Source: Candidatus Omnitrophota bacterium
GTDB lineage: Bacteria; Hinthialibacterota; Hinthialibacteria; Hinthialibacterales; JAKPRU01
Assembly (NCBI GenBank): GCA_029570205.1
Contig: JAKQSI010000067.1
Location: forward strand, 59,141 to 123,140
Reading direction: 5' to 3'
Length of the DNA: 64,000 bases
A model generated the notes under the pieces. That model was given only the letters and a program-made list of their open reading frames with translations, searched no databases and had not been told where the DNA came from. The position numbers and the translations under genes were made by a program. Shown here one piece after another: positions 21,678-25,202 of this stretch. Position 1 is the first letter of the stretch. Every line of letters starts with the position of its first letter.

Positions 21678-21787
21678 GTCATTCCGAGGAGCGAAGCGAT
21701 GTGGGAATCTCATCGTTGAAGCGCGCAAGCCTGAGATCGCCACGTCGCAGCCCTTCGCAGACTCCGGGCTGCTCCTCGCGATGACGG
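21678..21787. repeat. REP-like palindromic repeat
   Basis: Starts GTCATTCCGAGGAGCGAAGC and ends with the near-complement CTCCTCGCGATGAC. Internally it pairs GTGGGAATCTCA with TGAGATCGCCAC. This GTCATT...AATGAC layout is a common intergenic repeat type in many bacteria. It overlaps the outermost possible start of the hydrolase gene. Confidence 0.75.
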
Positions 21788-21934: not shown

Positions 21935-21962
21935 TTGACAGGGGTTTTTGTTTCAGTAGAAT
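21935..21962 (+). promoter_or_regulatory. Strong promoter of the helicase gene
   Basis: Perfect -35 TTGACA (21935-21940), a 16-base spacer and -10 TAGAAT (21957-21962). The leader to the chosen ATG is about 30 bases. The -10 is embedded in a perfect 7-base inverted repeat (21952-21968), so a repressor bound there would block the promoter. Confidence 0.7.
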
Positions 21963-21968
21963 ACTGAA
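21952..21968. promoter_or_regulatory. Palindromic operator candidate over the helicase -10
   Basis: TTCAGTA-GAA-TACTGAA is a perfect palindrome that covers the -10 hexamer. Its placement is that of a repressor site. The AGTA/TACT centre is reminiscent of some non-classical LexA boxes, but no family can be assigned from one site. Confidence 0.5.
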
Positions 21969-21999
21969 CAAATGTACAATACATCGGGAGGCGACCCCT

Positions 22000-24519
22000 A
22001 TGGCGACTATGCAGGATCTGCAATTTTTCGGCCTGGATGAGAAACAAATCCTTGCTCTCACAGCCACTTACGGTTCCAACTTGTTGCCGCTGCAAGAGAC
22101 GGCTTTGAAGCAGGGTTTGCTGACAGGCAGCGAGGGATTGATGGTGTGTGCGCCGACTTCATCCGGCAAGACACTTCTGGCGGAACTGGCGTTTCTGGCG
22201 GAGGCGAAACACGACCGGCCGGTTATTCTGCTTGTACCCTCCAAAGCATTGGCCGCAGAACGCTATAACCGGCTGAGGAACCAATATGATCCGTTGGGCT
22301 ATCGAATCTGCCTGTCATCCCGCGACCACAGCGAGGAAGACCGCTTTATCGCCGAGGGCCGATACCATCTTGCGGTGATTGTGTATGAAAAGATGCGGAT
22401 CCTGATGATGCGTCATCCGGGCCTGGTTTCCAGTGTGCGGGTCATTGTAATTGATGAGCTGCAATACATTGCGGACCCGGATCGCGGCCCGGACCTGGAG
22501 CTCTTGCTGATGAGATTGAGAAGCATCAAAGAGATTCGGTTTCTGGGGCTTTCGGCGGTGTCCAGTTCGGAGATCCTGGCACAGTGGCTGGGATGCCGTT
22601 CGGTGGTGGAGACTGCTCGGCCGGTGGAACTGCGCCAGGGCGTATTGTGCGGGAACCGGTTTCTGTATCGGGAACACAACTCCGGGCAGGAGGGCGAAGA
22701 GCATCTTCCTTTACCGGAAGTCGACAATGAGAGTGTTTTGATGCTGGAGGCCGCAAAGCATTTCGCCATGCACGGGGAAAGCAGCCTCCTGTTCTGGCCA
22801 TCCCGGAAGGTGTGCTATGAGGCTGCGCATCGCCTGGTCGGCATGGGGCTTCCGAAAGAAATTGAAAAGGTCCCGCCGGTCTTGACGGATTTGCCGAACG
22901 GGCGGATGCGGCAATCGCTTGTAAATCTTGCCCCGTATCGGATCGGTGTGCATACATCCGACCTCTCCCCGGAAGAACGCGCCGCTGTGGAACAACTGTC
23001 TCTTGACGGGACGATTCGGATTCTCTGCGCGACCTCTACCCTCGCAGAGGGAATCAATCTTCCGGCGCAGAATGTTCTGGCACACCCGCTTTCGTACCGC
23101 GCTCCTCTGCCCGATCAAGCGCCGGAGGTTCAGAAACTGGAACCGCAACGGTTTGTCAATATGATCGGAAGAGCGGGACGGCTTGGATTGGCTTCGTTTG
23201 GGAGAGGGATGGTTGTCACGACCCTGGAGGGAGACATTGACGGGTTCCTGGATCGATACCTGAGCCGACGGACCTACGAACTGACCTCGCAACTCCCCAA
23301 TCGTCCGCTGCGGGACATTCTGATGGAACGGACCGCTTCGGGCGAGACCGCTACGGTTTCATCAATGACATCATGGCTTCAAGGAACCTTTGCAGGCAGA
23401 CAACATGCGTGGCCCGGAGACTTGCAAACCGCCGTGACAGATTCGGTGGAAACGCTGGTAAAGAAGGGCCTTTTGACTCGATCGGGGGACCGGCTGCGCA
23501 CATCAGGGGTTGCCGGTATTGCGGCACGGTGGGGTATTGCGGTCGAAACCGCAGCGGCTTTGCATAACGTACTCGCACGCCTGGCCGATACCGGGCCGGA
23601 GCCGCATCTCCTGCTTTACGCAATATGCCGTGCCAAAGAGATGGAAGAGATATTCGTTCCGCTTCGGCGTTCGGAATGGATCGGTAGAATGTGGTCCAGA
23701 CGGTTTTGGGAGAAAGATTCCATTCAGGAAACGGATTTGGAGGGACAAACTATCCAGGCGGGGGAACGGACCGCCAAGAAGGCGTTGATTCTGGACGCAT
23801 GGTCCGGCGGGGAGAAGATATTGAGGATCGAAAACGGTTTTGAGGTTCTTGCGGGGGTTGTGCGGAGTTTGGCGGATCAGGCCTCCTGGCTGCTGGAACC
23901 GGCATTGGAGATTGCGGCGGAGATGGGGGCGCCGGCGGATCTTTGCCGCTCGCTGGATGAACTGAGAACCTGTGTTATTACGGGCCTGCCGCGAAAAGGA
24001 TTCGCCTGGAGGTCTCTTCTTGCGAAAGGATTTCCCAGGGAGTTTGCGCTGGACCTGATCGACCTTGGGGCCGACCGGCCGGAGACGGTGGCCTCTTTGC
24101 CCGAAGCGGAATTGAACCGTGCGGTTCCTGAATCGTGGCAAAATCTCCTTCCAAAGAACGGAAAGAACCACAAAACCAAACGGGACTCCATGCGGGAAGG
24201 CGCTGTGCATCTCCATATTGATCCCCACCGGCCGGATCGGGTTATTCTGGAGGGCACACCCGTTTCGTTGACCCGGAAACAATACGGACTTCTGGCGTTT
24301 CTGGCGGCGAGACCCGGTGAATGCGTTTCCTATGACATATTGCTGGACCGGGTTTGGGAAGGAACGATTGTGGAGCAGGCGCAAGTCCCCAAAATCAAAA
24401 GCCAGATCTGCAAACGATTCCGCGAAGTCCTCGGACCGAGAGGCGATGGGATTATCAAAACCATCTCAGGCCGTGGCCTGATGCTGCAAGCCGAAGCGGA
24501 GATCCTTGCGCCGAAGTAA
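22000..24519 (+). CDS. Ski2/Hel308-like helicase with C-terminal OmpR/PhoB-type winged helix
   Basis: 839 residues. The N-terminal two-thirds is a superfamily 2 helicase of the Ski2/Hel308 kind: motif I APTSSGKT (51-58), LVPSKALAAER (Ia), motif II DELQ (152-155, with Gln where Hel308 has His), GLSAVSSS (III), HTSDLSPEER (IV), ATSTLAEGINLPA (V) and NMIGRAGR (VI, about 388). A Hel308-like winged-helix/ratchet region and a helix-hairpin-helix-like GADRPETVASLPEAEL follow. The last about 85 residues (747-830) form a second winged helix of the OmpR/PhoB transcription-factor type (VSLTRKQYGLLAFL, VPKIKSQICKRF, KTISGRGL). This pairing is unusual. ATG 22000 has GGGAGG eight bases before it. It could serve in repair, defence or promoter remodelling. 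Confidence 0.9.
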   Translation: MATMQDLQFFGLDEKQILALTATYGSNLLPLQETALKQGLLTGSEGLMVCAPTSSGKTLLAELAFLAEAKHDRPVILLVPSKALAAERYNRLRNQYDPLGYRICLSSRDHSEEDRFIAEGRYHLAVIVYEKMRILMMRHPGLVSSVRVIVIDELQYIADPDRGPDLELLLMRLRSIKEIRFLGLSAVSSSEILAQWLGCRSVVETARPVELRQGVLCGNRFLYREHNSGQEGEEHLPLPEVDNESVLMLEAAKHFAMHGESSLLFWPSRKVCYEAAHRLVGMGLPKEIEKVPPVLTDLPNGRMRQSLVNLAPYRIGVHTSDLSPEERAAVEQLSLDGTIRILCATSTLAEGINLPAQNVLAHPLSYRAPLPDQAPEVQKLEPQRFVNMIGRAGRLGLASFGRGMVVTTLEGDIDGFLDRYLSRRTYELTSQLPNRPLRDILMERTASGETATVSSMTSWLQGTFAGRQHAWPGDLQTAVTDSVETLVKKGLLTRSGDRLRTSGVAGIAARWGIAVETAAALHNVLARLADTGPEPHLLLYAICRAKEMEEIFVPLRRSEWIGRMWSRRFWEKDSIQETDLEGQTIQAGERTAKKALILDAWSGGEKILRIENGFEVLAGVVRSLADQASWLLEPALEIAAEMGAPADLCRSLDELRTCVITGLPRKGFAWRSLLAKGFPREFALDLIDLGADRPETVASLPEAELNRAVPESWQNLLPKNGKNHKTKRDSMREGAVHLHIDPHRPDRVILEGTPVSLTRKQYGLLAFLAARPGECVSYDILLDRVWEGTIVEQAQVPKIKSQICKRFREVLGPRGDGIIKTISGRGLMLQAEAEILAPK

Positions 24520-24596: not shown

Positions 24597-24625
24597 TTGA
24601 CAAGCATCCGGCTCCGACGTATAAT
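24597..24625 (+). promoter_or_regulatory. Consensus promoter of the toxin-antitoxin operon
   Basis: TTGACA (24597-24602), a 17-base spacer and TATAAT (24620-24625): a full match to the sigma-70 consensus at optimal spacing. It lies 34 bases before the antitoxin start. Such a strong promoter is expected to need tight repression, provided by the adjoining palindromes. Confidence 0.85.
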
Positions 24626-24658: not shown

Positions 24659-24889
24659 ATGCAGAAGAAACTGACAATCACTGTTGATGAAGAAGTCTAT
24701 TCGGGGCTTCATAATCGAATCGGCTCCGGCAGAATCAGCCGGTTCATCGAGGACCTTGTCCGTCCTCACGTTTTGGATGAGGAGATGGAGCGCGCTTACG
24801 CAGAAATGGCCCGGGAAGAAGACCGCGAAGCCGAGGCCCTGGAGTGGTCGGAGGCAACCGTTGGAGATATAGGCGATGAACCGAGGTGA
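24659..24889 (+). CDS. Antitoxin of a MazEF-type pair
   Basis: 76 residues. The N-terminal half reads [15 protein letters not shown]...[13 protein letters not shown], a ribbon-helix-helix-like DNA-binding fold of the kind found in many antitoxins paired with MazF. The C-terminal half is acidic ([20 protein letters not shown]), as expected for the flexible part that wraps and inhibits the toxin. It overlaps the toxin gene by 14 bases. It probably represses its own promoter through the ATACGTAT boxes. Confidence 0.82.
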
Positions 24890-25202
24890 GGTCTGGTGGG
24901 TCTGTTTCGATCCCTCCATCGGCGGTGAGATCCGAAAGAAAAGACCCGCCGTTATTATCAGTAATGACGCCTCGAATCGGTACTTGAACCGTGTCCAGGT
25001 TGTCCCTCTTACCACGAATGCTGCGCGCCTGTATCCGAGTGAAGCGTTTGTTACGCTGAACGATCAACGCAACAAGGCAATGGCGGACCAGCTCACCACG
25101 GTGAGCAAGGAACGTCTGTTGAATCCACTGGGAAATCTTTCACGTGAGGATATGCGGCAAATCGACCGAGCCGTGAGGGTTCAGCTGGGACTATCGGACT
25201 GA
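24876..25202 (+). CDS. mazF: MazF/PemK-family mRNA interferase toxin
   Basis: Sequence-specific endoribonuclease that halts translation by cutting mRNA when freed from its antitoxin. 108 residues with the family landmarks: [18 protein letters not shown] at the start, [20 protein letters not shown], and [15 protein letters not shown] near the middle, where the catalytic surface lies. ATG 24876 has a GGAG box eight bases upstream. It forms an operon with the preceding antitoxin. The cut site cannot be predicted from sequence alone. Confidence 0.92.

Follow-up and report, generated by a model that had tools for sequence, protein, structure and literature searches.

The closest described counterparts of the helicase reported here are the archaeal Hel308/Hjm enzymes (PDB 2zj2, 2p6r and 2va8), in which two RecA-like domains (domains 1 and 2) are accompanied by a winged helix (domain 3), a ratchet domain with a conserved tryptophan (domain 4) and an HhH-like domain 5. 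Homologous helicase domains are present in HELQ and DNA polymerase theta of metazoa, and a Ski2-like/Hel308-like core is also found in HamB of the Hachiman system (PDB 8vx9). As for bacteria, Hel308 has been said to be absent from them in a 2024 paper (PMC12278908). In the window, by which we mean the whole stretch of 64,000 nucleotides analyzed here, we have identified a gene whose product shares the five domains of Hel308/Hjm but belongs to a bacterial family, carries an additional C-terminal winged helix of the OmpR/PhoB type, has in this family often DExQ in place of DExH, and appears to be under SOS-type control. Compared with HELQ and DNA polymerase theta, the protein lacks a polymerase domain and has other appendages. 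Its C-terminal domain has the fold and the wing signature of the response-regulator output domain (Trans_reg_C), but there is no receiver domain, the winged helix is joined to a helicase and, in the family, the region of the recognition helix possesses its own conserved glutamine and lysine. We estimate at roughly three in four the probability that this protein is an SOS-induced DNA-repair helicase from a bacterial family that is sister to archaeal Hel308, a reading that derives from sequence comparisons.

The gene and the two parts of its product are located as follows:

22000..24519, + strand: helicase gene, 839 aa (open reading frame and profile matches)
21986..21991, + strand: ribosome-binding site GGGAGG (read directly)
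22000..24192, + strand: helicase part, Hel308 domains 1-5, residues ~1-731 (profile alignment with Pyrococcus Hel308/Hjm, invariant residues)
24211..24495, + strand: OmpR/PhoB-type winged helix, residues ~738-832 (Trans_reg_C, hhalign)

The start codon is the ATG at 22000, the first of 839 codons that precede the stop; the mechanical open reading frame opens upstream, at 21781, but 22000 is preferred because the relatives and the ribosome-binding site agree with it. Four Pfam domains, all above their cut-offs, succeed one another along the protein (DEAD 30-189, Helicase_C 311-396, Helicase_dom4_arc 538-658 and Trans_reg_C 752-828). As AlphaFold run without an alignment reached a pLDDT of only 35 and 40 for the whole protein and its C-terminal part, respectively, the fold assignment is based on profiles and not on a model. 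On this profile evidence (Pfam, Hel308 models and hhalign), the product is confirmed as a five-domain Hel308-type SF2 helicase (~1-730) followed by an OmpR/PhoB-type winged helix (~738-831), as proposed in a preliminary description of this DNA.

Regarding the helicase part, the SF2 motif set is complete, with a Walker A and a DExH/Q box: Q-motif (Q32), motif I (APTSSGKT, 51-58), motif II (DELQ, 152-155), motif III (LSA, 184-186) and motif VI (NMIGRAGR, 387-394). The DELQ sequence, which had been pointed out as a departure from DExH, is thus correctly read; it is ordinary for the family, since DExQ is found in most members and DExH in those of family f2, two further members having DExE. The best score of the NCBIfam Hel308 models, which cover residues 12-711, is 258.6 bits, far below the equivalog cut-offs of 887 to 1216 (258.6 bits vs 887; 180.1 vs 1200). 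Helicase_dom4_arc, which represents the ratchet domain, matches with 37.6 bits for a cut-off of 27, and Trp630 of the ratchet helix, which we take to be the counterpart of Trp599 in Archaeoglobus Hel308, is invariant in the 14 aligned relatives (14/14). A family profile made from seven relatives of the same order as the window genome aligns with almost all of Pyrococcus Hel308/Hjm (272 bits, E 6e-80), residues 17-734 of the profile pairing with Hel308 15-698, that is, through domain 5. The same profile gives 248 bits with Archaeoglobus Hel308, 228 bits with Sulfolobus Hel308, 175 bits with Brr2 (partial alignment) and 143 bits with polymerase theta (POLQ), over almost the whole length. As the Ski2-like superfamily is mixed and ASCC3, Brr2 and Ski2 match too, one might think of a Ski2-like RNA helicase whose task would be RNA surveillance or the rescue of translation and whose likeness to Hel308 would be superficial. 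We consider this highly improbable: across the five domains, the Hel308-specific domain 4 among them, nothing matches better than archaeal Hel308, the DSHCT or KOW arch domain is absent, and the SOS-type promoter described below is shared with DNA polymerases.

The last ~90 residues were examined in three profile tests, all supporting a winged helix as initially suggested: Trans_reg_C matches with 36.1 bits (cut-off 26.2), wing signature included; profile-profile comparison by hhalign with four response-regulator C-termini gives a probability of 98.7 (E 1.9e-16); and response-regulator DNA-binding domains of the PDB match this part of the protein, at best with 7e-8. In the helix preceding the wing, Gln795 (14/15) and Lys800 (15/15) are conserved across phyla and specific to the family. 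Because the core and wing residues are maintained along with Gln795 and Lys800, the domain is not decaying in canonical members. Outside the phylum, a canonical winged helix is present in eight members (G047, G025, G193, G192, G153, G290, G173 and G312), the domain is interrupted by a contig end in one, and it is short and degenerate in further members. Two members (G377/G249 type) have a different C-terminus, that of L166 and L170 is other than the winged helix, and inside the phylum the G009 protein stops after the helicase. Lost or replaced in some relatives, the winged helix is hence accessory and dispensable to the helicase; we tentatively suggest that it is probably an accessory grip on duplex DNA.

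Upstream of the gene, three elements overlap or adjoin one another:

21935..21962, + strand: sigma-70-type promoter, TTGACA-16 nt-TAGAAT (11/12 consensus positions)
21952..21968, no strand assigned: inverted repeat TTCAGTA-GAA-TACTGAA over the -10 (perfect 7-bp arms)
21963..21978, no strand assigned: LexA-type SOS box, core TGAACAAATGTACA at 21965-21978 (motif from lexA/recA promoters)

In the window species and its two sister species, the -35 and the surroundings of the -10 are conserved, and the sequence directly after the -10, ATACTGAACAAATGTACAAT, is identical in all three. A motif was learned by Gibbs sampling from the regions upstream of lexA and recA in seven genomes of the order, the helicase sequences being excluded. 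Of all places in the 64 kb window, 21963-21978 matches it best, with a score of 20.6, while the next unrelated place scores 10.3; with a symmetrised 14-mer, the helicase promoter scores 17.1 and any other place in the window 10.0 at most. A LexA-type box is accordingly found before the helicase in the window's genus, and none was detectable in the six genomes of family f2. The promoter had been described as strong and covered by a palindrome. A palindrome does overlap the -10 of the helicase, but it is its neighbour, the LexA-type box, that is conserved: the arms of the 21952-21968 repeat are broken in both sister species, which makes it a poor candidate for an operator. Autoregulation through this repeat was rejected for its lack of conservation and for want of a second exact copy in the genome.

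These data also bear on the idea of a site-directed remodeller or regulator, whose winged helix would bind a defined sequence, perhaps the palindrome of its own promoter, and bring the helicase there. Although the domain genuinely belongs to the OmpR/PhoB-type winged helices, with two residues before the wing conserved across phyla, and the palindrome lies over the -10, we judge this unlikely. Besides the fate of the palindrome, the conserved promoter element is one common to lexA, recA and polymerase genes; moreover, several relatives have a degenerate, replaced or absent winged helix, and its net charge is just -1 to +7.

Genome-wide, TGAACANANGNNCA occurs 11 times in the window's genome, against 3 occurrences of a reversed-pattern control. 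Two of these sites precede lexA and one each precedes the helicase, a DnaE-type polymerase III alpha and a Y-family polymerase, the remaining sites being partly chance-like or without annotation; the site of the DnaE-type polymerase, TACTGAACAGATGTACAATA, is one base off that of the helicase over 20. In the same genome, a reading frame that is short or disrupted, possibly an unknown SOS gene, has two LexA-type boxes and a strong promoter in front of it (L104:1477-1514). In other phyla, a simple comparison of the regions upstream of lexA and of the helicase was mostly not significant, with no box in most of the genomes tested, and our argument there uses only four cases. The helicase promoters of G153 and G290 contain CTG-N10-CAG between a TTGACA -35 and a TATACT -10, and CTG-N10-CAG also precedes the lexA of these genomes; in G193 and G048, a co-oriented lexA directly precedes the helicase at a distance of ~105 bp. 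Because G193 and G048, as well as G153 and G290, are close in the tree, these cases count as two lineages and not four. Taken from these sequence motifs, we infer that the helicase is a member of the LexA (SOS) regulon, bound by LexA and inducible.

Homologues were found in 14/14 genomes of the phylum in our collection, with the same full-length architecture at ~37% identity in six f2 genomes, and a long match (E < 1e-120) was obtained in 19 of the 372 genomes sampled outside the phylum, distributed in ~15 families. A contig scan with the single helicase sequence returned the sister genome as its only match. As the family recurs in several phyla, the fusion of helicase and winged helix is not a one-off. 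The 28 bacterial members come together as a single group in the maximum-likelihood tree (91/83, in 94% of the bootstrap trees), apart from the three archaeal Hel308 (99/99), whose rows are partial and taken from PDB alignments. The bacterial clade did not group inside Hel308, represented in this tree by archaeal rows and not by metazoan HELQ, and as both outgroup rows sit on long branches, the root of the tree is not settled. The best explanation is that this bacterial family is the sister of archaeal Hel308 and is not nested in the archaeal sequences; given this placement and the scores below the equivalog cut-offs, we do not claim membership in Hel308 proper. Within the window's class, the helicases of G012 and G013 (L042 and L045) branch far from the remaining phylum, which suggests replacement by another subfamily. 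In the sister genome, a 94% identical helicase contains one in-frame TGA (L002:2281-2340), reflecting either a sequencing error or a broken gene.

The nearest outside group in the tree consists of plasmid-borne, caspase-fused helicases from Rhizobium, Agrobacterium, Hymenobacter and Bradyrhizobium. This sister clade differs from the window family by an N-terminal Peptidase_C14 domain, the absence of a Pfam Trans_reg_C match and its location on mobile replicons. The loci concerned (L172:4215-7316, L173:4227-7235, L174:4230-7283 and L175:4230-7247) match Peptidase_C14 with up to 3e-16, and the plasmids are typed as conjugative or mobilizable; judged by their sequences, these fusions resemble a candidate system of defence or cell death.

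Downstream, the helicase gene adjoins a toxin-antitoxin pair:

24597..24625, + strand: toxin-antitoxin promoter, TTGACA-17-TATAAT (12/12 consensus; apart from the helicase unit)
24659..25202, + strand: RHH-like antitoxin and PemK/MazF toxin (Pfam; lineage-specific neighbour)

The RHH-like protein (24659-24889) gives a weak match and is followed by the PemK/MazF toxin (24876-25202), and TACGTATA repeats cover their promoter. The pair does adjoin the helicase as the preliminary description stated, but it has its own promoter and occurs at the helicase 3' end in only one of the three species of the genus, that of the window. In one sister species (G002, JAKPRU010000944.1), the helicase continues straight into the next gene without it, and in the other (G001) the gap to the neighbour is too small to accommodate it. 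A functional link was rejected on this absence from both sister species, and the pair is, from this comparison of sites, a recent lineage-specific arrival and no partner of the helicase. More generally, helicase neighbours vary between genera and none is conserved. In three f2 genomes, the helicase is closely preceded by a small co-oriented gene (L033:7363-7761, L035:11777-12370 and L037:6621-7004); Pfam assigns a DksA/TraR-type zinc finger to the L033 and L037 copies, that of L035 being linked via blast only.

This context weighs on the hypothesis of an anti-phage defence effector, comparable to Hachiman HamB or to a candidate helicase of PADLOC. Two PADLOC models recognize the helicase core, PDC-M23B with 4e-39 and HamB with 4e-36, and the caspase-fused plasmid clade resembles a defence gene. 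However, the Hel308 models reach 258.6 bits vs 132 for the best PADLOC model, HamB included, and the promoter is of the SOS type. Furthermore, the annotated neighbours in the window and in the relatives include neither a HamA-like gene nor another defence partner, and the gene, universal in the phylum, behaves as a core rather than an accessory gene. A defence island was rejected on the same universality and on the unconserved neighbours, and we regard a defence effector as very unlikely. The roles first put forward for the fusion, a site-directed remodeller or a defence effector, are therefore unsupported.

For an SOS-induced DNA-repair helicase, the following course of events can be proposed. 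LexA would sit just after the -10 and keep the gene off; upon DNA damage, the helicase would be derepressed along with lexA and translesion polymerases. It would then load onto the 3' single-stranded tail of a stalled or broken fork, the ratchet of domain 4 would drive 3' to 5' translocation, and the lagging-strand duplex would be removed or the DNA end cleared, while the winged helix, joined to the end of domain 5 by a short linker, would probably hold the adjoining duplex. Polarity, fork loading and removal of the lagging-strand duplex are presumed here by analogy with archaeal and human Hel308. A more elaborate version, in which an SOS-controlled counterpart of Hel308/HELQ present in several bacterial phyla would have recruited the winged helix as its own targeting module, recognizing a specific site in DNA or a fork of a given structure, seems doubtful to us.

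In the open literature, which we covered incompletely, no report of this bacterial family or of its SOS control was found. A five-domain bacterial sister family, present in 14/14 genomes inside the phylum and 19/372 outside, alters the view that Hel308 is absent in bacteria, and the promoter evidence assigns the helicase a role in SOS that can be put to the test. Finally, a core, SOS-linked branch can now be distinguished from a defence-like one (HamB and the caspase-fused helicases), so that one could examine how helicase-based defence originated in helicases of DNA repair.
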